From Shouchella miscanthi (lineage in GTDB: Bacteria; Bacillota; Bacilli; Bacillales; Bacillaceae_D): a stretch of DNA of 64,000 nucleotides. Shown piece by piece: positions 2,191-64,000 of the stretch (its first letter is position 1; each line of letters starts with the position of its first letter). Made by a program: the position numbers and the translations under genes. The stretch is from positions 620,001 through 684,000 of the forward strand of contig NZ_CP042163.1 in assembly GCF_007725405.1 (NCBI RefSeq), written 5' to 3'. The notes under the pieces are model-generated. The model searched no databases and was not told the origin of the DNA. It saw only the letters and a program-made list of their open reading frames with translations.

Positions 2191-2212
2191 CTTAATAATG
2201 AGGGGGATAAGC

Positions 2213-2809: not shown

Positions 2810-2848
2810 TGATTAAAGAATAAAATGGTACACAGGAGGTGATGACGC

Positions 2849-3223
2849 TTGTTCTTTCTATTTTGGGGTTTCTTAGTATGGTTAGGGGCAACGGCTATCT
2901 TTCGATTTTTAGGCCAATTCTTCTTCATCCCGGATAATACCTTTTTTCTAGTGGCAGCGTATGTCATTGTTATTCCGTTAATTCTTGTTATTACGCTACC
3001 CCTTTATCGGTATAAAAAGCTGAACGCTTTTAATCAATTGAAAGCAGCAATCTTTATTGCGTTACCAGGAATGCTGTTCGATGTTATTGTGTTAATTTAT
3101 TTCGCAGAGTTTTTTGTGAATTTGGAGCCGGAAATGGACCGGTTTTTTGCATCGTGGTTATTATTGGCTTATTCTGTCATTTTGCTTACAGGATTGATCC
3201 CTAGTGGAAAACAACGTTCTTAA
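2849..3223 (+). CDS. four-helix membrane protein, DUF5367-like
   Basis: A 124-residue hydrophobic protein with a TTG start placed after CACAGGAGGTGATGACGC, an excellent ribosome binding site. There are four predicted membrane segments: about residues 3-20, 27-47, 65-84 and 98-116. The layout and lack of polar motifs resemble small DUF5367-type membrane proteins of Bacillus; function unknown. It sits between the TetR regulator and the acyl-CoA-dehydrogenase-like gene with short spacing (18 bp to the next start), so it is probably in the same transcript. Confidence 0.6.
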   Translation: MFFLFWGFLVWLGATAIFRFLGQFFFIPDNTFFLVAAYVIVIPLILVITLPLYRYKKLNAFNQLKAAIFIALPGMLFDVIVLIYFAEFFVNLEPEMDRFFASWLLLAYSVILLTGLIPSGKQRS

Positions 3224-3241
3224 AAATGAGGAGGGATTGGA

Positions 3242-30086: not shown

Positions 30087-30350
30087 ATGCCAGAAATTAA
30101 AGTGAATGAAGAAGAAGTACTAAGCGTATTAAGTGAAGCAGGTGAAAAAGCAAGTTTCATAGTTTCAGATAGTGAACCGGCGATTGAGACATCATCAATG
30201 GCCTTTCTTTCAAAATTGGCCGAGTTCGAAAGTGGATACGCTACTCAACTCAAGGCGTTTTTAGATGTGTTCAAAAGCGTGCAACAAGAAAGTGAGGAGC
30301 TTGTTAAAACATACGGAGAAGTCGATCGCTCACTCGCAAGCCATAGATAA
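30087..30350 (+). CDS. YwqI-like (DUF5344) T7SS toxin-partner protein
   Basis: An 87-residue helical protein starting MPEIKVNEEEVLSVLSEA. The ATG at 30087 follows GAGAGGTGAT at proper spacing; a TTG at 30069 is upstream of that RBS. Its size and its place between the DUF5082-like and LXG genes match YwqI (DUF5344), a WXG100-like partner of LXG toxins. It ends 23 bp before the LXG start. Confidence 0.83.
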   Translation: MPEIKVNEEEVLSVLSEAGEKASFIVSDSEPAIETSSMAFLSKLAEFESGYATQLKAFLDVFKSVQQESEELVKTYGEVDRSLASHR

Positions 30351-30373
30351 TGATAGGAAAGGATGCCGAACGA

Positions 30374-32410
30374 ATGAAAGTTCTTGATGTACAAGAAGTG
30401 ATGGATGCGATTGACAAAATCAAAATTTCCAAGCAACAGGATTCTGACAACATTGAAAGCTTGCGAGCGAGCATCCAGAAGATTGAACAACTAGAGACCT
30501 TGCAAGGCAAAGGCGGAGAGGCGTTAAAAGACCATTTTAGGAGGCTTCATTTACCTGTTCTCGAAGCGTTTCATTTACTCATTCGTCAATACATGGAACA
30601 ATTAGATAGAGTAAAATCGAACTTACTAGGCTTTGAATCAAGCTCGGCCATCGTTAGGGAGGAGTTTCTTTCTGGTGAGCTAAAAAACGGGCTCGATCGC
30701 ATCGCCACAACGGCAACAGAGGATGCCAACGAAATTGAATCAATCCGCACATCCATCAGTGATATTCTCCCGCTTACGCCTTTTTCAATGGAAGAGGTCT
30801 TAAGACAGGTAGACCGTGGCAAAGACCACGCAAAAGAAACGATTGAGACATTACACGCCCTCGACGAACAAAATGAAGCATTGCTAGCCCAAGCTGAAAG
30901 CACGCTCCGAGAAGTAACGAACGTCGTCTCTCAAGTCGCAAACTGGTCGAGCGGCGGGGCAATTCTATCAGCAGGAACGCTTGCCGAAGTCGATTCGAAT
31001 GTAGAGGCTTTATACGCGAACCTCGTTACCGAAGCGATCCAGATGACGCCACCAGATCCATTTGACCTGACAGGACATGAAAGCGTGATGTACCAGACCG
31101 CGTTACCACTTGAGTTCCTCTACACGGGTGCCTATGCCAACATCCCAGGTGGACTCAAGGCAATGAGTTGGTATTACATGAATCGGTTCCCAGTTAGTGC
31201 GATGATGAATGACGAACAAGCGATTCAGGCATGCGTGGCGCCCCCAATTGAGCAAGATGTGGATGAAGGCGGGGGATGGTTGAATGCAACGTTCAACTTT
31301 TTTAAAGGTGTAGGAAGCGGAGCTGTAAATGCGGTAGGGGATGCAGTCGAAGGTGTTGTTAATCTCGTAACAGACCCGATAGGCGTGTACAATGACACGG
31401 TCGAATTTATTGGTGCGATTGTGGATGATCCTGCGTTGGTAGGGGAAATCGCAACTGAACTATGGCACGCATTTGAGGACGATGTGATTAATGGAGATGC
31501 TCAAAGTAGAGGCGAGTGGACTGGCTATGCTCTGGGCCTTATTGGTACAGCGGTTGTCGGCGATAAAGGAGTCTCGAAAATAGCGAATGCAAGTCGGGTT
31601 GGCACGGCGGGCCGACTTGGCGGCGTGCCGGGCTATGGGACGCAGCATCAACTTGGGTTGAGTTTGAGGACAACGCAAGGAATGGATCACTTTAGAATCG
31701 GGACGAGCACTGGTCCAGCTCTAGCATTAGTTGGAAATGGGAACAGGGTGATGCCACCATATAATACGTTAAATACCGCGCAGATCCGGTCAGATGTTGG
31801 GGATATGAGTCAAACAAATGTCAAAAGAGTTGAAAGCCCTACAGGAGCGACGGAAACGCAAAGAGCAGGTTCTGGAGGTCAAACGAGTACGAGCAGCGGT
31901 ACCAACCGGGCAAATCAAACGCAAGATGCGACCACCATTAACCCTACGGATAAGGCTAAAATTGATGAGTGGAAGTTTCGTCCTTCGGACGATAAATATT
32001 TGTCGAACAAAAAGACATTTGATAATCCTCAATATTATAATCAAGAAACAGGTGATATTAATTGGCCGCCTAATAACGGATTTGATGGGGACGTAGTGAG
32101 AACGGAGTTAAAGCCGGGGCAAGTAATTGATCGTTATGGAGAGCCTGGGGGGAATTTTCTTTCTCCAGATGGGACGCCTTACGAACAAAGAGCGTTGGCG
32201 TTGCATAGTGACGATGCTAAGTATTATCAATATAGAGTTTTAGAAGCATTTGAAGTTGACAGCGGTAAGATTGCGCCATGGTTTGACCGGCCTGGTGGAG
32301 GGATACAATATCATACTGCAAATTCGAGGATTTATAATTCAAATGGTGAGCTTATAAAACCGACTGTAAAGGATTTATTGGACAACGATTATATAATAGA
32401 GATTAAATAA
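30374..32410 (+). CDS. LXG polymorphic toxin with TNT-type NAD-glycohydrolase C-terminus
   Basis: A 678-residue T7SS effector. The ATG at 30374 (MKVLDVQEVMDAIDKIK, the usual LXG start) follows GGAAAGGATG. The LXG delivery domain covers about residues 1-200. A pre-toxin region follows with LNATFNFFKGVGSGAVNAVGD and a linker containing GPALALVGNGNRVMPPYNT and IRSDVGDMSQ. The C-terminal ~145 residues form a TNT-like domain: VIDRYGEPGGNFLSPDGTPYEQRAL, KIAPWFDRPGGGIQYH. TNT toxins destroy NAD+. The next gene is the likely immunity protein. The linker resembles the repeat-encoded linker of the two orphan toxin fragments downstream. Confidence 0.9.
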   Translation: MKVLDVQEVMDAIDKIKISKQQDSDNIESLRASIQKIEQLETLQGKGGEALKDHFRRLHLPVLEAFHLLIRQYMEQLDRVKSNLLGFESSSAIVREEFLSGELKNGLDRIATTATEDANEIESIRTSISDILPLTPFSMEEVLRQVDRGKDHAKETIETLHALDEQNEALLAQAESTLREVTNVVSQVANWSSGGAILSAGTLAEVDSNVEALYANLVTEAIQMTPPDPFDLTGHESVMYQTALPLEFLYTGAYANIPGGLKAMSWYYMNRFPVSAMMNDEQAIQACVAPPIEQDVDEGGGWLNATFNFFKGVGSGAVNAVGDAVEGVVNLVTDPIGVYNDTVEFIGAIVDDPALVGEIATELWHAFEDDVINGDAQSRGEWTGYALGLIGTAVVGDKGVSKIANASRVGTAGRLGGVPGYGTQHQLGLSLRTTQGMDHFRIGTSTGPALALVGNGNRVMPPYNTLNTAQIRSDVGDMSQTNVKRVESPTGATETQRAGSGGQTSTSSGTNRANQTQDATTINPTDKAKIDEWKFRPSDDKYLSNKKTFDNPQYYNQETGDINWPPNNGFDGDVVRTELKPGQVIDRYGEPGGNFLSPDGTPYEQRALALHSDDAKYYQYRVLEAFEVDSGKIAPWFDRPGGGIQYHTANSRIYNSNGELIKPTVKDLLDNDYIIEIK

Positions 32411-33680: not shown

Positions 33681-34430
33681 AGAGTAACACGCGAACCAGA
33701 GGAGTACAAGCACTCAACACCTATGCAAAAAACATGAAAATGAGCGCTACAATAGCCACTGGCCAAGCGAGCCTTGCCGTAAAAGGCGCCACTGGCCAAG
33801 TGAAAAACAGCCTTGCCCGGGGAATGGACAATCTTCAAACCAACCTCAATGGTAGTTCGCCTGCTCTTGCGCCAGCCGGAGGCACAGGGATCGTGTGCCA
33901 TATAATGCGATGGATTCGCGAAGGATTCAACAAGATGTTGGCGCGGTAAAGCAGGAGCAGTTAAGGAAGATTGAGGTAGGGAGTGGGGTTAAACCTAAAC
34001 TCAAAGGATCGTTAATTAGAGAGTATATTCGGGATATAGAAGGAAGAACTGGTAGAAAACTTGATAAATTGCAGGTTGAAAATTTAAAAGATGCTCTAAG
34101 AAAAAAGATTACACACCTCTTACAAAAGAGCAAACAAGGGTCCATAGACGAGAGTTTAATAAAGTAAAGGACAAACTTGTTAGTGAATGGGAGTTAAACA
34201 CTGGTCAAAAGTGGCCAACATATACTGAAGATATTTTTTCAGAGAAGACTGGTTTATTGGTAAGAAATAAAGGTGATAAGTATGATGCTCATCATATCAT
34301 TGAAAATAATTACGCCGTAGATCATATGTGGTGGAATGTACACCCAGCCAAGTTTCCAAATGAGCATCAGGCGGGAATTCATGGATCTGGTTCACCTGCC
34401 AGGGAGTTATTTAGAGGAGGGAAATTATGA
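33681..34430 (+). pseudogene. orphan LXG toxin fragment with HNH-type nuclease tip, frameshifted twice
   Basis: A 5'-truncated toxin remnant in three frames. Part one (to about 33895) encodes TRGVQALNTYAKNMKMSA and NGSSPALAPAGGTG. Part two (about 33895-34106) encodes VPYNAMDSRRIQQDVGAV and IEVGSGVKPKLKGSL. Part three (34107-34430) encodes YDAHHIIENNYAVDHMWWN, VHPAKFPNEHQAGIHG and ARELFRGGKL, an HNH/AHH-type nuclease tip. The first shift reflects one base missing relative to the repeat copy at 35109 (GGATCG versus GGAACCG). The second lies at the A6 run 34101-34106. No LXG domain precedes it. Its TGA overlaps the SUKH immunity start by 3 bp, showing the original toxin-immunity coupling. Confidence 0.72.
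33833..33992 (+). repeat. 160-bp toxin-linker repeat, copy 1
   Basis: Begins CTTCAAACCAACCTCAATGG and ends GAGTGGGGTTAA. It matches copy 2 (35109-35269) except for about seven substitutions and a one-base deletion. It encodes the pre-toxin linker ...LQTNLNGSxPALAPAGG...YNAxDSRRIQQDVG... that also exists, more divergent, in the intact LXG toxin. Both copies are followed at once by unrelated toxin tips. Confidence 0.9.
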
Positions 34431-35076: not shown

Positions 35077-35108
35077 TCTTAAATTACTTTCGCCCGAGTA
35101 TATACAAC

Positions 35109-35269
35109 CTTCAAACCAACCTCAATGGCAGTACGCCTGCTCTTGCGCCAGCCGGAGGCGCAGGGAACCGTGTGCCATATAATGCGAAGGATTCGCGAAG
35201 GATTCAACAAGATGTTGGCGCGGTAAAGCAGGAGCAGTTAAGGAAGATTGAGGTAGGGAGTGGGGTTAA
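35109..35269 (+). repeat. 160-bp toxin-linker repeat, copy 2
   Basis: Second copy of the repeat at 33833, here with an intact frame (LQTNLNGSTPALAPAGG then AGNRVPYNAKDSRRIQQDVG). It marks the abrupt left edge of the second orphan toxin cassette; nothing toxin-like precedes it. Confidence 0.9.
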
Positions 35270-41648: not shown

Positions 41649-41909
41649 ATGGAGATACGAGTACGAAAGATGGATGCGGCCGCTGTCAGTAAAATTGATC
41701 AACTCGCAAAGGAAATAGGGGTCTCGCGTGAAGAGTTTTTACGCCGTCAATTGAACACGATGGCGTTCCATCACTTTAATCAAGACAAGGAAACGAAGTA
41801 CAACGAGATCATTCAACAGAACATGTTAATCATGGAACATTGTATTGAAGTGATGCAACAGTATCACGAAACCATTCAAGAGTTGATGGGTACTCATGAG
41901 CGTAACTGA
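41649..41909 (+). CDS. ribbon-helix-helix relaxosome accessory protein
   Basis: An 86-residue protein. The N-terminal RHH pattern is MEIRVRKMDAAAVSKIDQLA then GVSREEFLRRQL (about residues 1-40), followed by a long helix (YNEIIQQNMLIMEHCIEVMQQYHETI). CTAGGAGG precedes the ATG. It overlaps the relaxase gene by 14 bp. MobC-like RHH proteins bind oriT and help the relaxase, so the hairpins and repeats just upstream are its likely target. Confidence 0.78.
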   Translation: MEIRVRKMDAAAVSKIDQLAKEIGVSREEFLRRQLNTMAFHHFNQDKETKYNEIIQQNMLIMEHCIEVMQQYHETIQELMGTHERN

Positions 41910-43074
41910 ACAGGCTCCGGGGGTCGTACTCAAATCACGATTCACGACAGCCGATTCACGATCGTTCCAGAACTACGTGGACTATGTTGATCGTGAAGTC
42001 GCCACGATGAAACAAGATGGCGCAAACAAAATGTTTTCACTCTACCAGGACTATATGAGCGACCAGGAAAAAACATCATCTTTGTTCACGAAAGAGAGTG
42101 ATCACCTATCAAAAGCCGATAAGGGAAAAATGAAATCGCTGTTTGAACAGGCGCAATCGAATGGGAGTGTTATGTGGCAAGACGTGATCAGTTTTAACAA
42201 TGATTGGTTAGCCGAGAAAGGCATCTATAATCCCAAGACAGGTTCACTGAATGAAGAGAAGTTAAAGGACGTAGTAAGAAAATCCATGCACAATATGCAA
42301 GAGAAAGAAGGGCTTTCCGGTAGCGCGGTTTGGTCGGGAGCGATTCACTACAATACAGACAACATTCACATTCATTTGGCGATGGTCGAACCGAACCCGA
42401 CACGTGAACGAGGCAAGCGCAAACCACTCACCTTAGACAAGATGAAATCAACCGTCGTGAATGAAATATCGAATCGGCAGCCACACCAGGAACGCATCAA
42501 TGACATGATCAGAAAACACATGGTTCATGGCAAACAAAAGAACTCGACATTGAGGTTTCGCAACCGTGAGTTAAAGGAAGGATTCTTACAAGTGATGAAG
42601 CAATTGCCCGCTGATAAGCGACAATGGCAATACGGGTATTCCACGTTAAACCCGGTGAAGAAACAGCTTGATCAATTGACGACGGATTATTTGAAAAAGT
42701 ATCACGGGCAAGACCTTCAATCGTTGAACAAGATGCTTGATAAAGAGGTCCTAGAAATCAAAAAAGCGTATGGAGCTGGACCAAAAGATTCCTTTCGGTT
42801 TGATCGCTATAAACAGACCAAACTTGATGATCTGTATAAGCGAATGGGGAATGGCTTCTTAACCGAAATGAAAGAGTTTGCGAAGGACCAAGAACACATG
42901 AAGAAGCTCGCTTATCGATCAGATAAATGGCAAACGGCGTATGAAAATTCACGCACCTATCAATCACTACGACAAGCCTCTTATCACATGGGGCGTGATT
43001 ATGAGGACTGGAAGGAACAGCGAGCGTACGAACAACTACAACGCGACATTGATCAATCAAAAGAAAGGGAGTAA
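41896..43074 (+). CDS. MobL/MobP-type relaxase
   Basis: A 392-residue relaxase that should nick oriT and pilot the DNA strand. N-terminal features: GVVLKSRFTTADSRSFQNYVDYVDRE with candidate catalytic tyrosines at about residues 29-33, and the metal-binding HUH-like segment SGAIHYNTDNIHIHLAMVEP (about 148-170). Later RKPLTLDKMKSTVVNEISNR is typical of the MobL/MobP2 relaxases of Firmicutes. There is no helicase or primase domain. It overlaps the RHH gene by 14 bp, so the two are coupled. Confidence 0.88.
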   Translation: MSVTEQAPGVVLKSRFTTADSRSFQNYVDYVDREVATMKQDGANKMFSLYQDYMSDQEKTSSLFTKESDHLSKADKGKMKSLFEQAQSNGSVMWQDVISFNNDWLAEKGIYNPKTGSLNEEKLKDVVRKSMHNMQEKEGLSGSAVWSGAIHYNTDNIHIHLAMVEPNPTRERGKRKPLTLDKMKSTVVNEISNRQPHQERINDMIRKHMVHGKQKNSTLRFRNRELKEGFLQVMKQLPADKRQWQYGYSTLNPVKKQLDQLTTDYLKKYHGQDLQSLNKMLDKEVLEIKKAYGAGPKDSFRFDRYKQTKLDDLYKRMGNGFLTEMKEFAKDQEHMKKLAYRSDKWQTAYENSRTYQSLRQASYHMGRDYEDWKEQRAYEQLQRDIDQSKERE

Positions 43075-52109: not shown

Positions 52110-54362
52110 ATGGAAGCCTATATGTTTCCAGGTCAAGGTTCTCAAAAAAAAGGTATGGGAGAAGAATTATTTACAGAGTACGCTGATTATGTCCGAGTAT
52201 CAAATGAAATTCTTGGTTATTCGATCGAAGATCTTTGTCTAAATGATGAAGAAAGTAGGTTACAACTTACACAATATACCCAGCCAGCTTTATACATTGT
52301 AAATGCACTTACCTATTTTAAATACTGTCAAGAAAATGAGGAACCAGATTATCTTATAGGTCATAGCCTGGGAGAGTATAATGCTCTATTAGCAGCCGAT
52401 GTTTTTAATTTCGAAACAGGTTTGAAATTAGTAAAAAAACGTGGTGAGTTAATGTCAAGAGTAACAGGTGGAGGAATGGCAGCGGTTGTAGGAATGTCCC
52501 ATTCTAAAATTAAGACTATTCTTGAAGATCATGAATTAACGTCAATAGATGTTGCAAACATAAATACCCCTAGTCAAATTGTTCTTGCCGGACCAAGAGA
52601 AGATTTACTTCAAGCCCAAACAATATTTGAGAACTCTGGTTCGAAGCTGTTTTTGTCCTTGAAGGTGAGTGGGCCTTTTCATTCTAGGTATATGGAAAAA
52701 GTACAAGGTAATTACAAAGAATATGTAGATAATTTTCTATTTAACGAACCTCGTATTCCGATTATATCAAATGTAGATGCACTCCCTTATGCGGAAAAAA
52801 ACATCAAGAGTAACCTAGTTGAACAATTAGTAAGTTCAGTAAAATGGGATCAGACTGTCCAATATTTAATGGAAAAAGGAGTCTCAGAATTTAAAGAAAT
52901 AGGGCCAGGTAGCGTATTAACTGGTTTAGTTACAAAAATTAAATCTGAAAAACCTGAAAGAGTTCATCAACTAAAAGAAAAACAAATAGCCATTTCTGAT
53001 CAAGTGTCTACTAAGCAAAGTCCTGTAAAAAAAAGAGTTTTGATGGGCGACCAAAAATTCTGTGAAGACTATAATGTAGTCTATCCGTATGTAGCTGGTT
53101 CAATGCAAAAAGGTATCTCATCTCCTCAACTAGTATCGAGGATGTCTCAGAATGGTTTTTTATCTTTCTTAGGTACAGCATCATTAAAAATTAATGAAAT
53201 TGAAGATATTATTTTAGATACTAAACGATTACTTCGAGATGGACAGAGTTTCGGCTGCAATTTATCAGCTAATTTACATAATCCACAAAAAGAAAATGAA
53301 ATTATTGAAATATTCCTTAAATATAATATTAACTCAATAGAAGCGTCGGGATTTTGGGCAATTAGCTCCTCATTAATAAAGTTTCGCGCTAAAGGGTTAC
53401 ATCGTTCTGAAAGTGGAAAAGTAATTGCTAAAAATAAGATTCTCGTTAAGTTATCTAGGTGTGAAACAGCTGTGGAGTTTATGAGTGAGATTCCTCAGTC
53501 TTTAATTGATCCTTTACTTAAAAAAGGAGAAATTACATTTGATGAGGCAAAAATGCTTGAGGAGGTTCCCATTGTCGATGATATTTGTGTAATGGGAGAT
53601 AGTGGGGGTGAGTCCAGTCTAGCTAACTTATCACTTCTTTTACCTACTATTGTTAAGTTAAGAAATGAAGCCTCAAAGGAAAATATATTCGACAGACGAA
53701 TAAGAATTGGAGCAGGAGGAGGAATTGGGACCCCTGAGGCAGCCTCAATTGCTTTTATACTAGGAGCAGATTTTGTTTTAACTGGTTCTATTAATCAATG
53801 TACAGTTGAAGCTAAGACGAGCGATTTGGTGAAAGACATTCTTCAGAATATTGACTTACATGATCTGAGCTATGTTCCTAGCGCGAATGACTTAGAAGTA
53901 AGAGGTCAAACACAAGTAGTTAAAAAAGGAATGTTTTTCCCAGCTAGAGCCAACAAACTGCATGATTTATTGAAGCAGTACAAAAAAGTTTCAGAAATCG
54001 ACTTTAAAACTAAGGAATTGATAGAAGAAAGATATTTAAATGAAAAGATCATAAATATTATACAAACCAATGAACACCAATCTTCTAGTAGTAGAAGAAC
54101 TCCGAAAAGCCAAATACAGGAGGTTTTGAAATTCTATCTGAAAAATACTGTTCAATTAGCCATAAAAGGCGAGGCTTCTCAAAAAGTTAATTTTAATATT
54201 TATTGCGGTCCAGCCCTGGGTGCTTTTAATAGATGGATAAAAGGAACAGAGTTGGAGAATTGGAGAAATAGAAATATAGATGTTATAGCTAAAAAATTAA
54301 TAACTGAAACAGAAAAAATATTAGAGGAAAGAAGTCCATTATTAGAGACAATTCAAAGGTGA
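52110..54362 (+). CDS. trans-acting acyltransferase / enoylreductase didomain protein (PksE-like)
   Basis: A 750-residue protein serving a trans-AT polyketide synthase. The AT domain (about residues 1-285) has FPGQGSQKKGMG, active-site Ser86 in GHSLGEYNALLA, and LKVSGPFHSRYM, which predicts malonyl-CoA use. The ER domain (about 310-690) is of the PfaD/nitronate-monooxygenase flavin type: VAGSMQKGISSPQLV, CVMGDSGGES, GAGGGIGTPEAASIAF, ADFVLTGSINQCTVEA. AT-ER fusions of this size occur in bacillaene-type clusters (PksE). The AT loads the AT-less modules of the downstream megasynthase; the ER can reduce enoyl intermediates in trans. Confidence 0.95.
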   Translation: MEAYMFPGQGSQKKGMGEELFTEYADYVRVSNEILGYSIEDLCLNDEESRLQLTQYTQPALYIVNALTYFKYCQENEEPDYLIGHSLGEYNALLAADVFNFETGLKLVKKRGELMSRVTGGGMAAVVGMSHSKIKTILEDHELTSIDVANINTPSQIVLAGPREDLLQAQTIFENSGSKLFLSLKVSGPFHSRYMEKVQGNYKEYVDNFLFNEPRIPIISNVDALPYAEKNIKSNLVEQLVSSVKWDQTVQYLMEKGVSEFKEIGPGSVLTGLVTKIKSEKPERVHQLKEKQIAISDQVSTKQSPVKKRVLMGDQKFCEDYNVVYPYVAGSMQKGISSPQLVSRMSQNGFLSFLGTASLKINEIEDIILDTKRLLRDGQSFGCNLSANLHNPQKENEIIEIFLKYNINSIEASGFWAISSSLIKFRAKGLHRSESGKVIAKNKILVKLSRCETAVEFMSEIPQSLIDPLLKKGEITFDEAKMLEEVPIVDDICVMGDSGGESSLANLSLLLPTIVKLRNEASKENIFDRRIRIGAGGGIGTPEAASIAFILGADFVLTGSINQCTVEAKTSDLVKDILQNIDLHDLSYVPSANDLEVRGQTQVVKKGMFFPARANKLHDLLKQYKKVSEIDFKTKELIEERYLNEKIINIIQTNEHQSSSSRRTPKSQIQEVLKFYLKNTVQLAIKGEASQKVNFNIYCGPALGAFNRWIKGTELENWRNRNIDVIAKKLITETEKILEERSPLLETIQR

Positions 54363-54366
54363 AATA

Positions 54367-55032
54367 ATGACAAAGATGACTATTAATTTAACAGATACTT
54401 TGTATAACTATATACTAGAACACTCAAGTCAAGAGCCGTACATTGTAAAAAAGCTAAGAGAAGAGACAGCAAAATTACCTATGGCAGCAATGCAAACTCC
54501 TTCAGAGGAAACGCAGTTTCTCGCACTGCTAATTAAACTGATGGGTGCCTCAAAAATATTAGAAATTGGTACTTTTACAGGGTATAGTACTCTATGGTTT
54601 GCTTTGACTATACCAGAACATGGGATTGTCACTGCCTGTGATGTTGATGAAGAATGGACTTCAATTGGAAAAGAATATTGGAAGGAAGCAGGGGTATCAC
54701 ACAAAATTGATCTCAACATTGCTCCTGCACTAGAAACAATGAACTCTCTTATAAGTAATCATAAGTCTAATTATTATGATTTAATTTTTATAGATGCAGA
54801 TAAAGAAAATTATTTAAACTACTATGAAAATGCACTACTTCTAATAAGACCTGGAGGGATAATTGTGATTGACAATGTGCTTTGGGGTGGTAGTGTAGTT
54901 GACCCCTTAAATCAATCACGGGATGTAAAAGCAATTAGAGAACTAAATAAGAAGATTATGAATGATGATAGAGTTAGCATTAGTCTCCTTCCTATTGGAG
55001 ATGGAGTAACATTTGTTCTACCAAAAAAATAA
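54367..55032 (+). CDS. class I SAM O-methyltransferase (catechol/caffeoyl-CoA family 3)
   Basis: A 221-residue methyltransferase of the family-3 type. SAM-binding motif I is ILEIGTFTGYSTL (about residues 59-71), followed by VTACDVDEEW and the metal/catalytic segments LIFIDADKENYLNYYE and IVIDNVLWGGSVVDP. It has no signal peptide. It starts 4 bp after the AT-ER stop codon. The family methylates hydroxyl groups, usually vicinal diols on aromatic rings, with a divalent metal; here it should tailor the polyketide or its starter. An aromatic starter would fit the non-amino-acid A-domain, but that is speculation. Confidence 0.9.
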   Translation: MTKMTINLTDTLYNYILEHSSQEPYIVKKLREETAKLPMAAMQTPSEETQFLALLIKLMGASKILEIGTFTGYSTLWFALTIPEHGIVTACDVDEEWTSIGKEYWKEAGVSHKIDLNIAPALETMNSLISNHKSNYYDLIFIDADKENYLNYYENALLLIRPGGIIVIDNVLWGGSVVDPLNQSRDVKAIRELNKKIMNDDRVSISLLPIGDGVTFVLPKK

Positions 55033-55059
55033 AAATATGATTTGTGAGGAGAAATAATT

Positions 55060-55482
55060 ATGAATTTTCCGTATGAAAGACTAATTTTTAAGAATGAAAA
55101 CAAACCACTCTCATCTATTCCATTCCACAAGGACGTCCCATGTATTGAAAGATTCTTCTCAGACGAATTTCCTTTTCACTTAGCAATACATCATATAACA
55201 AATGCAAATGGATTAGATGAAGACTATACTAACCCCCATATCCATGACGATCTGGATGAAATAAATATTATCGTAGGAAAAGAGAATGAGCTTGAGTATA
55301 AAATCCAATTAGGTGAGGAAGAATTTGATGTTTCATCAAATTCTACGATATGGATTCCAGCAGGTGTTAAACATTCAGCAAATGTAATAAAAGGTGACGG
55401 TTATTTCATAGCTATTAGGATGGATGCAACACGATTTAATAAAGAATACATGCAAACACAATTCAATATGAATTTTGCATAA
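55060..55482 (+). CDS. cupin-fold protein
   Basis: A 140-residue single-domain cupin. Motif 1 is around PHIHDDLDEINIIVGKENELE (His, Asp, Glu in usual places); motif 2 is IWIPAGVKHSANV. These could hold a metal ion. GTGAGGAG precedes the ATG. It lies between the methyltransferase and the megasynthase, so it is probably a tailoring or chaperone-like enzyme of the cluster (oxygenase, isomerase or cyclase). No closer family can be given. Confidence 0.82.
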   Translation: MNFPYERLIFKNENKPLSSIPFHKDVPCIERFFSDEFPFHLAIHHITNANGLDEDYTNPHIHDDLDEINIIVGKENELEYKIQLGEEEFDVSSNSTIWIPAGVKHSANVIKGDGYFIAIRMDATRFNKEYMQTQFNMNFA

Positions 55483-55508
55483 CAAGAGCTAATGAAAGGA
55501 GGGGGAAA

Positions 55509-58500
55509 ATGGATTCTAGACATAAAGATCTTATTTCTCGGCTAAGAGAAAGAGGGACAAACTTATTTCTGGAAAATGGGAATATTACATTTGAAGGAGA
55601 ATTAACAGCGGAGGAAGAGTATTGGGTAAGGAACTTTTCTGAAGAAATTATTGGAGTATTGATTCAAGAAGGAAAAGAATTTTGGGCCACTTGTTTTTCT
55701 GATTCATCGTTAAACTGTGATCTCCCGACCTTTTTAAATAAAAGAAAGAGTGATAGCCCTTCTAATTCTTCTTACAGTTTTAAACTTACTACAAGTGAGC
55801 TTAAAGACCTAAAAAATTTAGATGAAAAAGGTACTTGGAGCTATCCTACTATGTTTTTAACAGCTTGGAGTGTACTACTTTCACGCTATACTTCTCAAGA
55901 GAAAATAAACTTTGTTACGGATGTACCTTCTAGGCATTCTGAAGGTGGCGCTGGTAAACCTATTAATATTAAGGTAACGAAGGAAACATCTTTCTTAGAT
56001 ATAAATGAAGCATTATTATATATTGATATCCTCTATAAAAAGAATTATTTTCCCGGTGTTGATTGGCTCGAAAATCAGATGCCTGAAGAATACGCCTCTA
56101 AATTTAATGTTTCCTTTTCATATTTAAATAACGAAGAAAATAATAACTATAACTCTGATTCAGTAGAGCCTCCTTTAGATTTATCTCTTCAAGTAATTAA
56201 ACATTCCAAAGGGTTAAAGCTTAAACTTTTATCAAAATATGAATATTTTAAAAAGAAAGACCTTGAAAGAATGAGCAGGCATTTCAGGAATATTCTGATG
56301 GAATTAATTTTAGATGATAAAGCGAGAGTCGTGAACTGTTCCATGATGTCTAGTAAAGAGAAAAGAAACTTAGCGCATTACCATGGTGAAAAAAGAGGCT
56401 ATCAGATCGAGAAGAATATAGTAAGTTTATTTGAAGAAACAGTTGAAAAAAATCCAAACAAGCTTGCTGTCATTACTGATGAGGATAAGGTAGATTATGA
56501 CACATTAAATAGCATGTCTAATTACATAGGGGAGCAATTGATTGAATGTGGAGTAAAAGAAGGCTCCTCTGTTGGTGTTTATGTTGATAGATCAATACAT
56601 ACTTATATTGCGATGTTAGGAATTCTTAAGATAGGAGGCGTTTATGTCCCTTTAGATGCTTCATATCCAGCGGAATACATCACACAAATAACTGAAGATT
56701 TAAACATAAAGCAATTTATTAGTAAAGAGAAACTTTTGAAGTTTCTTCCTAAACAAGATGGAAAGATCATACTTGTTGATAATATTGAAAAAAATAATCT
56801 AACACACAAAAAAGGTAATCTAGGTGTGAAATTAAACAGTCATAATCCGGCTGTTATTATGTATACGTCAGGTTCAACTGGTATTCCAAAAGGTGTAATA
56901 CATAAGCAAGTACAACTCCTAAATCGCTTAAATTGGATGTGGGAAAATTATCCTTTTAATGAGGATGATGTGATGTGTCAGCGTACAGCCTTAAATTTTA
57001 TGCCCTCCATGTGGGAATTATTAGGTGGACTCCTTCAGGGGATACCAACCGTTATTATCCCTGATAAGATAGTAGCTGATCCTAATAGGCTATTGGAATT
57101 TATAAGCGAGTATAAAATTACTTATATGATGACTGTTCCATCATTATTAAAAATGATGTATCAATCTAATTTGGATACCAAACAATTCCTATCATCTATA
57201 CGTCTATGTATCACTGCGGGAGAACCCCTAACGAGTGATATATTTAATAAATTCCGAGACAAATTCCCTAACGCTATATTACTAAATGATTTTGGTTCAA
57301 CAGAAACTAATGGAGTTCTATATTACGATTCAAAAGGGCAATCAAATTCATCTACATTACCACACTTTAAAACAATCGCTAATACAGAAATATATTTGTT
57401 AGATAAGTATCTAAATCAAGTTCCTGTGGGTGTTTTAGGTGATATATACATTAGCGGAGCTCCTTTAGCCTTAGGATATGTCAACAACATCAATCTCAAC
57501 AAGCAAAGCTTTCTCACTGTTCCACAAATATCAGCAGAGAAGACACTCTATCGTTTAGGAGATAGAGCAAGGTTTCTAGATGATGGTACGATTCAATTAT
57601 TCGGAAGAATGGACCACCAAGTCAAAATTAGAGGTAAGCGTGTTGAAATAGGCCATATCGAAACTACTATAAATAAGCATAATAAGGTAATAGAGAGTGC
57701 AGTGGTGGCTAAAAAAACAAAAAACAGCAGTAACCAATTGTACGCATATGTAGTTAGCAAACAAGAAGTAAGTGAAAACGAATTAGAAGAGTTTTTAATG
57801 AAATTACTTCCTGATTACATGATTCCTTTTAAAATTGAGATAATTGATTCCATACCAAAAAAACCAAATGGAAAGAAAAATCTGACAGAACTAATTAATC
57901 GAAGTAGTTCATTAACAAGCACTACGCATAATAAAAATACAATTTTAGAAAGCTTAAAGGGAATTACATCAAGGGTTTTAGAAGTAGATATTAATTCAGT
58001 TAATACTACAAAGAAGCTTTATGCAGTTGGATTTGATTCAGTTTCAATAGTTGATTTATCTAATCAAATTACTAAAAAAATGAAGATTTTAATAGAAGTA
58101 ACGGAACTATACGACTGTAATAACTTGGAGGAGCTAGCCAACCTTATTGTTGAGAAAGAAAACAATACGTATCAAATTGATAAAGACATAAGAAAAACTG
58201 ATTCATCTTCTAAAGAAATGAAGGAAGTAATAGTAAATCATAAACCGGAAAATCTAAAAATACATAAAGTGGATAACCACTTTGAAACTATTTCACAACA
58301 TAGCCTTACTGCAAATAAGGTCATAAATTGTGCTGCTTTGATATTAGAAATTGAAAGTAAAAGTATAAACATTAACAAGAAGATATATGAAGTTGGATTT
58401 GATTCGGTTTCTATTGTAGAGTTTGCAAGAAAACTAAGCGATATGTTTAATATACAAGTTACTACAACAGATCTTTTCAATACGCCTACGTTACTCGATG

Positions 58501-61500
58501 TTATCCAACTGTTAGAGAAAGAAAGTCAAGTTTCAGTGTTAAAAGAAAAAGAAGAATTTGTTGTAAAAGTTAAAACTGAAAATAATATGTCAAAAACTGA
58601 AAATAATAGCGGAATTCCTTCAATATTAAAAAAACATGCAGCTGATATATTACAATTTGAATTGTCAGATATAGATGATGATCTAAGTTTTGAAGATTTA
58701 GAATTTACACCAACAGACTTAACTAAGTACATCAAAGCTATAAGCCATAACAATAATTGGTCTATATCTTTTACTGACATAATTGAACACAACTCTATTG
58801 GTTCACTTGCTAAATATCTAGAAGACAAACAAACGAACATTCTTGGATTTATTGACCAGAAGAAAGACGATGTCAATGAGTTCCATTCGAAAGATAAAGA
58901 GTCAGTTTCAAAAAAGAATGATAATGGTGTTGAATTAAATAACAGAGAAATCGCTATTATCGGTTTTTCAGGTAAATTTCCAAATGCATTAGATATAAAT
59001 GAGTACTGGAAAAATTTAACCGAGGGAAACAATGCTATATGCGAGGTACCAGAAAACAGGTGGAGGATAGAGGATTACTTTGACTCAAACCCTCAATCGC
59101 CTAATAAAAGCTATAGTAAATGGGGCGGATTTATTCCAAATGTTGATAAATTTGATGCTCAGTTTTTTGATATATCCAAACATGAGGCTAAATTAATGGA
59201 TCCCCAGCAACGCCTTTGTTTAGAAGAAGCATTCAAGTCTTTAGAACATGCAGGATATTCAGATCGTTCTCTATATTCTCGAAATATAGGAACCTATGTA
59301 GGCATAAGGAAAGGTGATTACTCAACAAGATTAATAAGAAGTGGTATTGAGAATAGTTCATTTAATCTAACTGGAAATGACTCAGCGATACTTTCAGCTC
59401 GATTAGCATATATCTTAAACCTAAAAGGCCCAACTTTAGCAATTGATACCGCCTGTTCTTCATCGCTTGTCGCTATTCATTTAGCCTGCCAGAGTATCTT
59501 AAATGGGGAAGTAGAAATGGCAATTGCTGGTGGAGCTCATATAATGAGCTCATCAGATCTACATGTAACATCTAGTAAAATGGGTATGCTTTCTCCCAAA
59601 GGTCTATGTAAAACATTTGATGATGAAGCTGATGGATTTGTTCCAGGAGAAGCAGTAGGATTTGTAGTGATCAAAGAGCTACAAAGAGCTATTACTGATG
59701 GAGATTATATTCATGCCGTAATTAAGGGCTCTGGAATAAACCAAGATGGTACCACAAATGGTATTACGGCACCAAGTGTAGATTCCCAGTCAGAACTTAT
59801 TAGTACAACTCTTGAAAAAATCAAGGTAGATCCAGAGACTATTACTATGGTGGAAGCGCATGGTACAGGGACTAAACTAGGTGATCCCATTGAAGTTAAG
59901 GCTTTAACGGAAGCTTTTAAGAGATCTACTAAAAAAGTCCAATATAGCGCTATTGGTTCTGTGAAAACTAACATTGGACATGCAGTGGCCGGTGCTGGAA
60001 TAGCTAGTTTGCTAAAAGTGATTATGTCACTCAAACATCAGCAAATTCCTAAAACATTGAATTTTACAAATGGAAACGAACATATTAATTTCAAAGAAAG
60101 TCCATTTTATGTAAATACTCTTACCGAGAACTGGAGAACTGACGCTCATCTGAGAAGAGCAAGTGTTAGTTCCTTCGGTTTTAGTGGGACAAATTGCTTC
60201 ATGGTAGTTGAAGAGGCATTGAAAGCTCATGTAGGGAATAAACATCAAGATCCGTATTATTTAATTACTCTTTCTGCAAAAAATGAAACTTCATTGAAAC
60301 AAAAAGTAAAAGATTTATATCAATGGACTAAAAAAGATGGACATTTGTATGAGATGGGAGACATTTCATATACATTAATTAACGGCAGGAGTTTCTACCA
60401 ATATCGTATTTCATTTATTGTGTCTAATATAAGTGAATTAGAGAAGTCGTTATTACAAATTATGAATGATAGTTATGAGGAAATTAATTATGCAAAATGT
60501 AATGGTGATCATAATTCATTTAAAGAAGAGCATGAAAGTATAGTTAGGATTTTTGAGAGTGTAAAACACCAAAAATATTCCTCTACAGAAGAGTTTAAAT
60601 TATTACTATCCTCATTATCGAGGGAATTTGTGGAAGATAATGATTTACAGTGGGACAATTTATTTGAAAGGCGCTTTTGGAAAACTATACCATTGCCGGT
60701 TTATTCATTCTTAGAAGAATATTTTTGGATTGAAGAACCAGAGAAAGAAGAGATTCTTAGCTATAAGGAAATAAAAAAAGAGGTACAAGACAAACGTTCG
60801 TTTGTTACAACTATCAATAGTACTGATGTATGCGTTAAAGAACATAAAATATCGAACAAAAAAATTGTACCAGCAGCAATGTATATAGAATTTATCAGAA
60901 ATTGTATAGAACATTACTATAAAATAAATACATTTAGAATAGAAAATTTTGTTTGGTTGAGACCAATTGAAGTTCAGAGTCAAGTAGAGGTTATAGTTGA
61001 ACTGACGCCAAAAAATCAACATTGTTCGTCTTTCATTATTAAAGTTGGCAATGAAAGTCATGCTTCAGGAATAGTCTTCATGGAGAGTATTAAAAGATCA
61101 AGTATTGATTTAAATAGCCTTTTATTAACGGATTCAAATACAAAAATTGATAAATTGTCTTGTTACAGGAAGTTTGATGAGAGAGGTATTAATTATGGTA
61201 GTTCATTTCAACTGATAGATTCTTTATCGATTGGTGAAGATTATATTATTGGTAAGCTAGCTTCTAAAGATATTGGTTCTAACGCAACTTTTCTAATTGA
61301 CTCAGTTTTTCAGACTGCAATAGGACACAGTTTTAATCATTTTGATCCATATCCTTATATGCCTTATACCATAGAAAAAATTAAGATTACTGAAGACTTT
61401 CGTTCAGGGGTTAAGGTTTTAGTACACAAAGTAGATAGTAAGGAAAAGTCAAAAATGAGAAAGTACAATATTTCTCTTTTAAACAATGAGAATAATGTTG

Positions 61501-64000
61501 TCATGGAATTTAAGGGATTTACTCAGAGAGAATATAAAGTGGAACCACATACGTCGTCTCAGCAAATGGTTAAATTATATAACCCCAAATGGGAAATTTC
61601 TGAATTGAATTATACTGAATTATATTCAGGTAATACACTTCTTATTGATGTTGACAATATATTAACAGGTTTACAAGATAACCACTCAAGCTCTAATAAA
61701 GTAGTTCTAGTAAAGCCTGGAAAAGCCTATAAGCAAGTTGGCCAAAATGAGTTCATTGTAGACTTGAACAATAAAGAAGAACTTAGAAACTTATTAAAGA
61801 AGACTGGTTTTGTAAAAATAGAAAGCATAGTGTACTTAAGTAAAACATCAATTCAATCTAAATATAATTCAAGATCAATTCTCGATTTGTTTACAGGAAT
61901 TCAAGGATTATTAGAAATTGGCTATCAACGGAAGATCAAATTTTTATACACCTATGTAAATATTTCGACAATACCGCAACCCCAACATGAAGCTGTTTCA
62001 GGATTCTTAAGAGTGTTGGAGAGAGAATATAGTGGATTAAAAGGGAAAGTTATAGAGATTAGACATAACGATGTTCTGAAAACTGAAAATGTGCTGTTTG
62101 ACATTATTAATCAAGAGCTATCTAACTATGATTCTTCTCATGACATCATATATCAAAAACAAAACAGATTAGTTAAAAGGTACGAAGAGTCAAGTTTAAA
62201 AAGATATAATTCGGAGTACTTAAATACCGAATTAATAAAACAAGGAGTCTATATAATTGCTGGTGGGACTGGTGGATTAGGAGAGATTTTCGCGCAATAT
62301 TTATCCAGAAAAATGGAAGCTAAGATAGTACTAGTTGGTCGGAGACCATACGATAATAGTGTTGCACTAGCAGTTGAAAAGATTCAATCTGGTGGAGGAG
62401 AGGCTATATATTATCAATGTGATATTTCTAATCGACAACAAGTAGCAAATCTAATTAACTTCACCAAAAATCGCTTCAATAAAGGCATTAGTGGTATTTT
62501 TCAATCTGTTGGAGTTATAAAGGATAGTCTTTTTAGAAATAAAGTTCCAAACGAAATCGATAAAGTGCTTAAACCAAAGATTGAGGGAACTCTTTATTTA
62601 GATGAGTTAACTAAAGATGAGGACATAAAGTGTTTTGTTCTATTTTCTTCTATCTCTCCTATAATGGGGAACATTGGACAAAGTGATTATGCTTATGCCA
62701 ATAGTTTTTTAGATGCTTTCGCTCACAAAAGAGAGCTTATGAGAAAACAAGGGAATCGTTCTGGAAAGACAATATCATTAAATTGGCCTTTCTGGAAAGA
62801 TGGTGGCATGGGAATCGATAGCAATAAAAAGGATAGCATGGAAAGAGAATTTGGACTATATGATTTAGAAAGTATAGAGGGTATTGAAGCATTTGAAATT
62901 GCTATGGGGCTAGAACATCCTCAACTTATTGTGATAAAAGGTGAAGTAAATAACTTAGATATTTTTTTAATGGACAAAGAAGTCGAAAATCCAGTTACGA
63001 ATATACAGACTAACATATTAGAAATAGAACACGTGCAGAAGGACCTAATCACTTTAGCGCAACAAATCCTTACTTCTAATGAAGTAATAGATGTAAAAAC
63101 AGACTTGACTGAGTATGGGTTGAATTCAATTACCATAACAGAGTTCAGTGGATTAGTTAGCAATTTCTATGGAGTTCAAATTCCTCCATCGGTATTTTTC
63201 GAGTACACTTCGTTAAATTCCATATCAGAGTATTTGTGCGAACAGCATTCTGGAGTGATCCAAAAACGTTATCATGGAAAGCCAACTGAAAACATTAAAC
63301 ATTTCTATTCGCCGGAGCTTATTAGATCAAATGAAGATGAAACTGGGTTAGAAAGTCTTAATGATGAGTCCACAAATACTTCAGCATCTATAGAGACAAC
63401 AGATATTGCGATTGTGGGAATAAGTGCGAAATTCCCTGGTGCAAATACCTTAGAAGATTTTTGGAACAATTTAATGTCGGGTAAGTCAGCCATTACTGAA
63501 ATTCCTGCTGAAAGAGGAGATTGGAAACATAGTTATAAGGATCTCGAAGAAGCAGATAAGAATCCAGTAAATATGGGGGGAGTCATATCAGATATAGATA
63601 AATTTGATCCTTTATTCTTTAATATTTCACCTAATGAAGCAAAACTTATGGACCCGCAGCAGCGAATTTTATTACAAGAAACATGGAGGGCGTTAGAGGA
63701 TTACGGTCAAAAGCCTTCAAGACTATCAGGTGAAGATGTGGGAGTATTCATTGGAGCCTTTACAAGCGATTATAACGACTTACTTATTAAAGAAGGTATT
63801 AATGAAGGTCATAGTGTTGCGGGTAACGATCATTCTATTTTAGCTAATAGAATTTCTTACTCATTTAACTTCAAAGGTCCTAGTGAGGCAATCGATACGG
63901 CATGCTCAAGTTCGTTGGTAGGTCTACATCGTGCTATACAATCATTAAAATTTGGCGAGTGTAAATTGGCTATAGTAGGAGGAGTTAACGCATTACTTTC
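55509..64000 (+). CDS. hybrid NRPS / trans-AT PKS megasynthase, 3' truncated by the window
   Basis: The frame is open from ATG 55509 (AAAGGAGGGGG upstream) to the last base, about 2830 residues, with no stop; the gene continues outside. Domain order by residue: 1-62 TubC-type docking (LISRLRERGTNLFLENGNIT); about 90-290 condensation-like remnant without HHxxxDG; about 300-790 adenylation (MYTSGSTGIPKG, LLNDFGSTETNG, RLGDRARFLDDG, KPNGKKN); PCP with Ser844 (GFDSVS); PCP with Ser966 (GFDSVS); a third carrier-like domain with Pro1068 where Ser belongs; KS about 1145-1575 (Cys1316, His1451, His1491); no AT; DH with His1779 and Asp1931; KR with GGTGGLG about 2252 and Tyr2394; ACP with Ser2540 (GLNS); second KS from about 2632 with Cys2799. 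The AT is supplied in trans by the PksE-like protein. AT-rich coding unlike the upstream chromosome suggests acquisition by transfer. Confidence 0.95.
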   Translation, partial: MDSRHKDLISRLRERGTNLFLENGNITFEGELTAEEEYWVRNFSEEIIGVLIQEGKEFWATCFSDSSLNCDLPTFLNKRKSDSPSNSSYSFKLTTSELKDLKNLDEKGTWSYPTMFLTAWSVLLSRYTSQEKINFVTDVPSRHSEGGAGKPINIKVTKETSFLDINEALLYIDILYKKNYFPGVDWLENQMPEEYASKFNVSFSYLNNEENNNYNSDSVEPPLDLSLQVIKHSKGLKLKLLSKYEYFKKKDLERMSRHFRNILMELILDDKARVVNCSMMSSKEKRNLAHYHGEKRGYQIEKNIVSLFEETVEKNPNKLAVITDEDKVDYDTLNSMSNYIGEQLIECGVKEGSSVGVYVDRSIHTYIAMLGILKIGGVYVPLDASYPAEYITQITEDLNIKQFISKEKLLKFLPKQDGKIILVDNIEKNNLTHKKGNLGVKLNSHNPAVIMYTSGSTGIPKGVIHKQVQLLNRLNWMWENYPFNEDDVMCQRTALNFMPSMWELLGGLLQGIPTVIIPDKIVADPNRLLEFISEYKITYMMTVPSLLKMMYQSNLDTKQFLSSIRLCITAGEPLTSDIFNKFRDKFPNAILLNDFGSTETNGVLYYDSKGQSNSSTLPHFKTIANTEIYLLDKYLNQVPVGVLGDIYISGAPLALGYVNNINLNKQSFLTVPQISAEKTLYRLGDRARFLDDGTIQLFGRMDHQVKIRGKRVEIGHIETTINKHNKVIESAVVAKKTKNSSNQLYAYVVSKQEVSENELEEFLMKLLPDYMIPFKIEIIDSIPKKPNGKKNLTELINRSSSLTSTTHNKNTILESLKGITSRVLEVDINSVNTTKKLYAVGFDSVSIVDLSNQITKKMKILIEVTELYDCNNLEELANLIVEKENNTYQIDKDIRKTDSSSKEMKEVIVNHKPENLKIHKVDNHFETISQHSLTANKVINCAALILEIESKSININKKIYEVGFDSVSIVEFARKLSDMFNIQVTTTDLFNTPTLLDVIQLLEKESQVSVLKEKEEFVVKVKTENNMSKTENNSGIPSILKKHAADILQFELSDIDDDLSFEDLEFTPTDLTKYIKAISHNNNWSISFTDIIEHNSIGSLAKYLEDKQTNILGFIDQKKDDVNEFHSKDKESVSKKNDNGVELNNREIAIIGFSGKFPNALDINEYWKNLTEGNNAICEVPENRWRIEDYFDSNPQSPNKSYSKWGGFIPNVDKFDAQFFDISKHEAKLMDPQQRLCLEEAFKSLEHAGYSDRSLYSRNIGTYVGIRKGDYSTRLIRSGIENSSFNLTGNDSAILSARLAYILNLKGPTLAIDTACSSSLVAIHLACQSILNGEVEMAIAGGAHIMSSSDLHVTSSKMGMLSPKGLCKTFDDEADGFVPGEAVGFVVIKELQRAITDGDYIHAVIKGSGINQDGTTNGITAPSVDSQSELISTTLEKIKVDPETITMVEAHGTGTKLGDPIEVKALTEAFKRSTKKVQYSAIGSVKTNIGHAVAGAGIASLLKVIMSLKHQQIPKTLNFTNGNEHINFKESPFYVNTLTENWRTDAHLRRASVSSFGFSGTNCFMVVEEALKAHVGNKHQDPYYLITLSAKNETSLKQKVKDLYQWTKKDGHLYEMGDISYTLINGRSFYQYRISFIVSNISELEKSLLQIMNDSYEEINYAKCNGDHNSFKEEHESIVRIFESVKHQKYSSTEEFKLLLSSLSREFVEDNDLQWDNLFERRFWKTIPLPVYSFLEEYFWIEEPEKEEILSYKEIKKEVQDKRSFVTTINSTDVCVKEHKISNKKIVPAAMYIEFIRNCIEHYYKINTFRIENFVWLRPIEVQSQVEVIVELTPKNQHCSSFIIKVGNESHASGIVFMESIKRSSIDLNSLLLTDSNTKIDKLSCYRKFDERGINYGSSFQLIDSLSIGEDYIIGKLASKDIGSNATFLIDSVFQTAIGHSFNHFDPYPYMPYTIEKIKITEDFRSGVKVLVHKVDSKEKSKMRKYNISLLNNENNVVMEFKGFTQREYKVEPHTSSQQMVKLYNPKWEISELNYTELYSGNTLLIDVDNILTGLQDNHSSSNKVVLVKPGKAYKQVGQNEFIVDLNNKEELRNLLKKTGFVKIESIVYLSKTSIQSKYNSRSILDLFTGIQGLLEIGYQRKIKFLYTYVNISTIPQPQHEAVSGFLRVLEREYSGLKGKVIEIRHNDVLKTENVLFDIINQELSNYDSSHDIIYQKQNRLVKRYEESSLKRYNSEYLNTELIKQGVYIIAGGTGGLGEIFAQYLSRKMEAKIVLVGRRPYDNSVALAVEKIQSGGGEAIYYQCDISNRQQVANLINFTKNRFNKGISGIFQSVGVIKDSLFRNKVPNEIDKVLKPKIEGTLYLDELTKDEDIKCFVLFSSISPIMGNIGQSDYAYANSFLDAFAHKRELMRKQGNRSGKTISLNWPFWKDGGMGIDSNKKDSMEREFGLYDLESIEGIEAFEIAMGLEHPQLIVIKGEVNNLDIFLMDKEVENPVTNIQTNILEIEHVQKDLITLAQQILTSNEVIDVKTDLTEYGLNSITITEFSGLVSNFYGVQIPPSVFFEYTSLNSISEYLCEQHSGVIQKRYHGKPTENIKHFYSPELIRSNEDETGLESLNDESTNTSASIETTDIAIVGISAKFPGANTLEDFWNNLMSGKSAITEIPAERGDWKHSYKDLEEADKNPVNMGGVISDIDKFDPLFFNISPNEAKLMDPQQRILLQETWRALEDYGQKPSRLSGEDVGVFIGAFTSDYNDLLIKEGINEGHSVAGNDHSILANRISYSFNFKGPSEAIDTACSSSLVGLHRAIQSLKFGECKLAIVGGVNALL

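Follow-up and report, generated by a model that had tools for sequence, protein, structure and literature searches.

A complete trans-acyltransferase megasynthase cluster of Shouchella miscanthi with a probable siphonazole-type product

Introduction

Siphonazole, a rare compound from a predatory bacterium that moves by gliding, is described as the product of a mixed polyketide synthase (PKS)/nonribosomal peptide synthetase (NRPS) path, with two oxazoles on a two-carbon tether and a terminal 2,4-pentadienylamine (PMC4902038). An E two-carbon unit is attached to its aryl ring (PMC12271995), it has been made via an (oxazolyl)methyl ketone and a 5-methyloxazole (PMC2996175), and its biosynthesis is covered in a review (PMC8222398). 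In 2010 the siphonazoles were reviewed as the first, and so far the only, natural substances with two-carbon-tethered oxazoles (PMC2996175). The siphonazole cluster is assigned to Herpetosiphon sp. B060 (PMC9687252), a genus placed in Chloroflexi (PMC3368417). Here we analyzed a 64,000-nucleotide stretch of the genome of Shouchella miscanthi (hereafter the window: bases 620001-684000 of the 4.25-Mb single contig NZ_CP042163.1, with window coordinate equal to contig base minus 620000), in which a trans-acyltransferase (trans-AT) PKS/NRPS cluster begins at position 52110, together with the sequence past the window. The Herpetosiphon cluster is reportedly mosaic-like and employs decarboxylative off-loading, according to the title of Mir Mohseni et al. 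2016 (Angew. Chem. 55:13611). From the titles of the literature naming siphonazole, no producer in Bacillota was apparent.

Results and discussion

The cluster is complete and its megasynthase frames are open

When the sequence past the window was fetched, the cluster was found to span 52 kb, from window position 52110 to contig position 724142, about 40 kb beyond the window end. It is complete and intact and consists of 11 genes, four of which encode megasynthases; all the downstream genes given below lie on the + strand. The first gene (52110..54362, + strand) is an open frame for an AT-ER didomain protein, a trans-acting malonyl transferase fused to a PfaD-type enoyl reductase (ER), with an Acyl_transf_1 match and with FabD and PfaD-family models above their cut-offs. 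It is followed by a family-3 O-methyltransferase gene (54367..55032, + strand; open frame, Methyltransf_3 at 251 bits) and a small cupin gene (55060..55482, + strand). All three genes had been named in the original prediction, which was made from the window; the cupin has an intact HxH(x4)E motif, and no Pfam or NCBIfam family was reached at E 0.001.

The first megasynthase, PKS1 (contig 675509-685636, + strand; window part 55509..64000), ends 1.6 kb beyond the window, which adds one more acyl carrier protein (ACP) domain. Its order is a partial condensation (C) domain, an adenylation domain (A1; 56430..57878), two peptidyl carrier protein (PCP) domains, a serine-less carrier, a ketosynthase (KS1; 58950..60218, with its catalytic Cys-His-His intact), a dehydratase (DH; 60783..61538), a ketoreductase (KR; 62244..62801), an ACP (63045..63236), a second ketosynthase (KS2; window part 63405..64000) and the final ACP, all on the + strand. 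The parts predicted within the window were thus recovered, except that the match for a docking domain (TubC_N) stayed below its cut-off and that the third of the three predicted carriers, although matched, has Thr instead of serine at the attachment position, as judged by eye.

PKS2 (contig 685658-698761, + strand) reads Cy-Cy-A(Thr)-PCP-PCP-Ox-Ox-KS0-ACP-KS-ACP-KS0-ACP, where Cy is a heterocyclization domain, Ox an oxidase lobe and KS0 a ketosynthase without the first catalytic His. PKS3 (contig 698822-707188, + strand) reads Cy-Cy-A(Thr)-PCP-Ox-Ox-KS0-ACP. PKS4 (contig 707118-720917, + strand; its true start is probably at a Met 39 bases downstream of 707118) reads C-A(Gly)-PCP-KS-DH-KR-ACP-KS-KR-ACP-TE, with an unmatched DH-like stretch between the last KS and KR and a thioesterase (TE) at the end. 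The four frames run open for 3375, 4367, 2788 and about 4599 residues; stop codons or missing domains downstream, which could have marked a remnant, were looked for and none were found. The row closes with genes for a SAP/DUF6434 protein (contig 721051-721656), a DNA polymerase IV (contig 721666-722733), a type II thioesterase (contig 722751-723461) and a phosphopantetheinyl transferase (contig 723462-724142), all on the + strand.

The domain order was derived mostly with Pfam on 25 megasynthase pieces, supplemented by motifs. These pieces omit most KS cores and residues 931-1379 of PKS2, 1-1369 of PKS3 and 501-979 of PKS4. The A domains of PKS2 and PKS4 were called from motifs and alignment, and that of PKS2 also by a solved-structure search; the Cy-Cy-A part of PKS3 was called from its near identity to PKS2, which holds over most of the length of PKS3 residues 1-1369. 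The Cy label follows motifs that we take to be diagnostic. No acyltransferase match was found in the 25 pieces, so that AT-less megasynthases stand beside a discrete AT, in agreement with the predicted trans-AT line fed by an AT-ER protein.

Domain order and active-site letters suggest a siphonazole-type product

Eight KS domains are present in the cluster, and three of them lack the first catalytic His, with A, Q and A in its place. These KS0 domains stand at the steps where a siphonazole route needs no extension. Between the two oxazole modules, PKS2 carries KS0-KS-KS0, corresponding to one elongation by the active-site letters. RhiE-like/CurL-like KS linkers are present in the megasynthases. 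In a KS tree of 27 rows, from which the rows PKS4_KS3 and La4_KS3 were ignored as spurious (a KR motif caught by the search pattern), the post-oxazole KS domains cluster together, including one from Paenibacillus dendrobii. Two related KS domains are each followed by a linker insert (PKS2 around residues 3230-3330, PKS4 around 3160-3240); the PKS4 insert has a weak, below-cut-off likeness to a serine-less carrier and is retained in Lysinibacillus alkalisoli.

The A domains of PKS2 and PKS3 (A2 and A3) both have the code DFWNIGMVH and that of PKS4 (A4) has DILQLGVIW, which we take to denote Thr and Gly, respectively. Two modules of the Thr-to-methyloxazole type, each with Cy, A, PCP and Ox domains, are therefore present, given the Cy motif and Thr code that we assume. 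The first nitroreductase-like Ox lobe of PKS2, the lobe submitted to the solved-structure search, matches the thiazole oxidase BmdC, and A2 matches BmdB among many others. BmdB and BmdC of bacillamide synthesis form a thiazole from Cys, with the oxidase as a separate protein; here, in contrast, Thr would be used, and tandem Cy domains and tandem Ox lobes are built into a PKS. The Ox lobe pairs of PKS2 and PKS3 are 33% identical to each other.

From the gene set, domain order, active-site letters and cross-genus conservation, which were observed directly, we infer every chemical step of the following route. A1 would load an aromatic acid, a hydroxybenzoate, and the O-methyltransferase, perhaps with the cupin, would act on the starter ring or supply the starter. 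KS1, DH and KR of PKS1 would add one malonyl unit and form the aryl-vinyl group, and the terminal KS-ACP of PKS1 would hand the chain to PKS2. There, Cy-Cy-A-PCP2-Ox-Ox would convert threonine to a 5-methyloxazole, the first KS0 would transfer the chain, and the middle KS would add the sole inter-ring malonyl unit (oxazole-CO-CH2). The second KS0 would pass the chain to PKS3 for the second threonine-derived oxazole. From the KS0 of PKS3, the chain would reach PKS4, where glycine and one malonyl unit (KS-DH-KR) would be added, followed by a last malonyl unit reduced to the beta-hydroxy stage. Release by the thioesterase, with loss of CO2 and water, would leave a 2,4-pentadienyl amide.

The line as read thus gives starter acid, vinyl, methyloxazole, CO-CH2, methyloxazole, Gly, vinyl and beta-hydroxy acid; once CO2 and water are lost, this corresponds to the siphonazole backbone, from the aryl-vinyl group to the Gly-derived pentadienyl amide, with a computed [M+H]+ of 464.18. 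The predicted units match those of the Herpetosiphon product one by one, both systems are of mixed PKS/NRPS type, and decarboxylation, predicted here from the PKS4 end, recalls the off-loading named in the title on the Herpetosiphon cluster. We therefore consider it likely that the cluster encodes a full trans-AT PKS/NRPS pathway leading to a siphonazole-type metabolite. The contrast with bacillaene, difficidin and macrolactin that had been drawn for the window extends to the whole cluster: unlike in those reference orders, Cy-Cy-A-PCP-Ox-Ox occurs here twice, followed by a Gly tail. The suggestion that the product may be new finds no such support, since the in-order reading of the whole line points to a scaffold that is probably siphonazole-type. 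If this is true, Lysinibacillus and S. miscanthi would be new hosts for two-carbon-tethered oxazole chemistry.

The cluster is conserved in Lysinibacillus alkalisoli

Contigs were scanned once with two short patterns, and of the 30 candidate stretches 3 were confirmed, two from L. alkalisoli and one from P. dendrobii; no Herpetosiphon locus appeared in this single scan. In L. alkalisoli CGMCC 1.15760, also a member of Bacillota, all 11 genes are found on four contigs, with PKS2 and PKS3 in pieces. Identities are 69% for AT-ER, which again comes first in the cluster, 86% for the O-methyltransferase, 82% for the cupin, 62% for PKS1, 69/64% for PKS2, 68/65% for PKS3, 68% for PKS4, 78% for SAP, 79% for the polymerase, 77% for the type II thioesterase and 62% for the phosphopantetheinyl transferase. 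The gene order is the same within contigs, and the joins between contigs were inferred. All eight KS counterparts have identical letters at the three catalytic positions, and the A codes (at aligned positions) and TE letters are also the same; the flanking genes, in contrast, are different. Among titles naming L. alkalisoli, none concerned metabolites.

An oxidase query matched 2 of 397 genomes of the order, its own and one other (G310), in which the match, at 33%, covers one Ox lobe only. The P. dendrobii locus (L013 / L023-L026) was rejected as a homologue, since it encodes another large trans-AT PKS/NRPS system that has a single Ox region. A TE query matched 2 of 398 genomes of the class, its own and a second one (G501) at 42% identity. 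The G501 pieces include a KR-ACP-TE end as well as DH-KR and ACP-KS stretches with 53% identity to PKS4, and the line starts with a partial C-A-PCP-KS-ACP followed by the beginning of a Cy domain, with an A1 code of MPWTIGDT. Since this first module has neither DH nor KR, the G501 product would differ. The G501 megasynthase with the same Cys thioesterase is followed (L071 1954-4985) by genes for a hydroxylase of the HpaB family (4-hydroxyphenylacetate 3-hydroxylase; above cut-off) and a MATE pump.

Chain release may proceed without a sulfotransferase

The PKS4 thioesterase is an Abhydrolase_1 protein with the motif GSCFGG in both genera and GSCFGS in G501, suggesting that Cys is likely the nucleophile. 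In the four pieces that cover PKS4 downstream of its last KS, no sulfotransferase was detected at E 0.01. Curacin and haliamide are terminated by a sulfotransferase-TE pair (PMC6274090), and ObiF has a Cys-TE that forms a beta-lactone (PMC6668435). Like the former, our line would take a beta-hydroxy end through a TE to a terminal alkene, but no sulfotransferase was matched and the nucleophile is Cys. Like ObiF, it would combine a Cys nucleophile with a beta-hydroxy acyl chain, but its TE matches Abhydrolase_1 and not the Thioesterase family. We hypothesize that the Cys-TE forms a beta-lactone that then loses CO2. No literature was found that joins thioesterase, beta-lactone, decarboxylation, terminal alkene and polyketide. 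An AlphaFold model of the TE, built from two sequences, was unusable (mean pLDDT 41.5). An intact siphonazole-type cluster would offer a sulfotransferase-free route to a terminal diene for study.

Indirect evidence points to an aromatic starter

A1 has the code MPWMIADG, with Met at the place of Asp235; loss of this Asp fits any acid without an alpha-amino group. That the starter is a ring is suggested indirectly by the methyltransferase family, the context of the cupin and the HpaB gene of G501. The O-methyltransferase family includes catechol and caffeoyl-CoA methyltransferases. For the cupin, an AraC_binding match was obtained below cut-off, at a looser limit only, and a search against solved structures gave one match at E 0.23. 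It was absent from the other 59 of 60 relatives and from the other 396 of 397 genomes of the order. A protein with 68% identity is found on one Priestia megaterium H2 plasmid record; it matches Cupin_2 below cut-off and sits in a meta-cleavage gene group with a LigB-family extradiol dioxygenase, an Amidohydro_2 protein, a hydroxymuconic-semialdehyde-type dehydrogenase, a 4-oxalocrotonate tautomerase and a decarboxylase-type protein. This group resembles what we take to be the layout of a protocatechuate 2,3-cleavage operon.

Alternative readings of the product

Several observations weigh against the siphonazole-type reading. The assignment rests on colinearity, because the Herpetosiphon cluster, from a Chloroflexi host, was compared through its described product and not its sequence. 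The DH of PKS1 reads HxxxN where the motif HxxxGxxxxP has Gly, the Asn normally present in a KR is missing from the last one (by eye), the AT-ER protein supplies an enoyl reductase for which this product has no use, and no sulfotransferase was matched that would explain decarboxylation as in curacin and haliamide. At the front end, the first module of the relative in G501 is without DH and KR, we know of no A domain code matching that of A1, no aromatic-acid biosynthesis gene was recognized in the cluster, to which that search was confined, and the NCBIfam names in the Priestia group fall mostly below cut-off, the tautomerase alone passing, while the Pfam names pass theirs. Moreover, KS2 of PKS1 keeps Cys-His-His in both genera and may therefore elongate, adding one more acetate (aryl-CH=CH-CO-CH2-oxazole...) and giving a homologue of siphonazole with [M+H]+ 506.19. 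The intact KS just upstream of the Cy module in G501 makes a keto-methylene before the first oxazole plausible in this family. This KS2 is, however, sister to KS3 of PKS2, the KS0 in the equivalent place before the second Cy module (support 99/97), and it carries an odd HGTAS motif, so we regard the extra elongation as unlikely, though worth keeping in view.

More doubtful still is a non-aryl bis-methyloxazole pentadienyl amide, which would result if A1 loaded an alpha-keto or alpha-hydroxy acid. The absence of Asp235 is compatible with any acid lacking an alpha-amino group. In one A domain that activates keto acids, the first code position is Gly (PMC5238615). The catechol-type methyltransferase family, the cupin context and HpaB in G501 all favor a ring instead. 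If the cluster were dead or silent, a leftover carried by a mobile island, it would have no product at all, as could be imagined from the absence of the cluster in G315, the sole same-species genome searched (oxidase and cupin queries, alignment), and from the transposase and mobilization genes of the island. This reading is very improbable, and we rejected it on the strength of the four open megasynthase frames, the KS catalytic letters equal to those of L. alkalisoli and the 62-86% identity of the cluster genes, in the same order, in that species.

A near-identical Cy-Cy-A block is shared by PKS2 and PKS3

Between PKS2 bases 379-3959 (contig 686036-689616) and PKS3 (contig 699173-702753), only 2 of 3,581 positions differ. 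Of the 150-base bins, the nearest one lying entirely upstream of the block shows an identity of 0.60, and the nearest one entirely downstream shows 0.52. In L. alkalisoli, the block lies on one 3.0-kb contig and both PKS genes break next to it; on each side the broken ends have 66 bases in common, as expected of a near-identical repeat that was collapsed, but no exact end overlap was found between the repeat contig and the broken PKS contigs. The blocks of the two hosts are 75% identical in DNA and 77% in protein, and the left edge is later in L. alkalisoli, where identity between the two N-terminal pieces is 77% across 768 bases. With its own sequence and this later edge in L. alkalisoli, the Cy-Cy-A pair was probably homogenized separately in each lineage. 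The G+C content of the block is 0.415, versus 0.31-0.34 in other measured parts of the S. miscanthi cluster, and 0.444 in L. alkalisoli, versus 0.31-0.37 in most other parts; a non-homogenized 549-base stretch just before the L. alkalisoli block also has 0.404. Biased conversion or a foreign donor could account for the raised values. Two separately homogenized blocks constitute a natural experiment in module copying.

A DNA polymerase IV gene travels with the cluster

In Shouchella as in Lysinibacillus, the SAP/DUF6434 and DNA polymerase IV genes lie within the row of biosynthetic genes. The host genome has two further Y-family genes; the cluster polymerase shares 47% identity with one of them and 80% with the copy in the L. 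alkalisoli cluster. We assign somewhat less than an even chance to the reading that the pair hitchhikes and plays no part in the pathway. Homologues of SAP were found in 15 of 99 other relatives, indicating that its presence does not depend on this pathway, and two papers report siphonazoles as without antimicrobial activity (PMC4902038, PMC2996175), while a third reports the opposite (PMC6210107). Against hitchhiking, the two genes occupy the same position, in the same order, in both genera, where at 78-80% identity they exceed the megasynthases, and a SAP homologue also occurs near the Cys-TE gene of G501, whose contig ends after the type II TE, with no polymerase seen before that point. Of the ten SAP loci returned, the cluster's own has an adjacent polymerase, and none of the other nine has one within 1.5 kb.

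Self-protection by the pair is a guess, and no case of self-resistance by a translesion polymerase (DinB) in a biosynthetic gene cluster was found in the literature. A broader scheme, in which a siphonazole-type product stresses the DNA of its producer, SAP-DUF6434 and polymerase IV form a tolerance cassette, off-loading proceeds through a sulfotransferase-free beta-lactone and the oxazole modules are kept alike by repeated Cy-Cy-A gene conversion in each lineage, is speculative and, taken jointly, improbable. An intact siphonazole-type cluster would also be a setting in which to test why a metabolite cluster is accompanied by a translesion polymerase.

The cluster lies on a genomic island

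Aligned to the same-species genome G315, the one searched, the sequence matches up to window position 31588; beyond that, short segments align at 33682-33989 and 35106-35266 before the match picks up again at contig position 735117. The island of about 80 kb in between is absent from G315 and carries the cluster. Repeats of about 170 bases occur at window 33815-33986, at window 35104 (35104..35269, the left flanking copy, a toxin-cassette sequence) and at contig 735112 (the right copy, 51 kb past the window). Because these repeats belong to an array of pieces beside a polymorphic toxin gene, they are not proven attachment sites. The toxin gene (30350-32410) encodes an LXG protein with a TNT-type C-terminal domain and is followed by the array of repeated cassette pieces at the island start.

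Between 35270 and 52000 lie genes for a MobL relaxase (41896..43074, + strand), an ArdC-like protein, a topoisomerase, a Toprim protein and a lysozyme-M23 peptidoglycan hydrolase, and this region is read from its genes as a putative mobilizable or conjugative element; no integrase was recognized among the island genes looked at. No plasmid copy of the cluster was found, as 52110-64000 had no megablast match in 72,556 plasmid records, and the island matched three plasmid records, each over at most 1% of the query. Beyond the cluster, two genes at contig 726782-730178 match the PADLOC models TmtA and bSEFIR and are possible defence genes on the same island. A further A-domain match lies about 35 kb upstream of the window, at G000:C1:584419-585606, in an open frame of 1016 residues.

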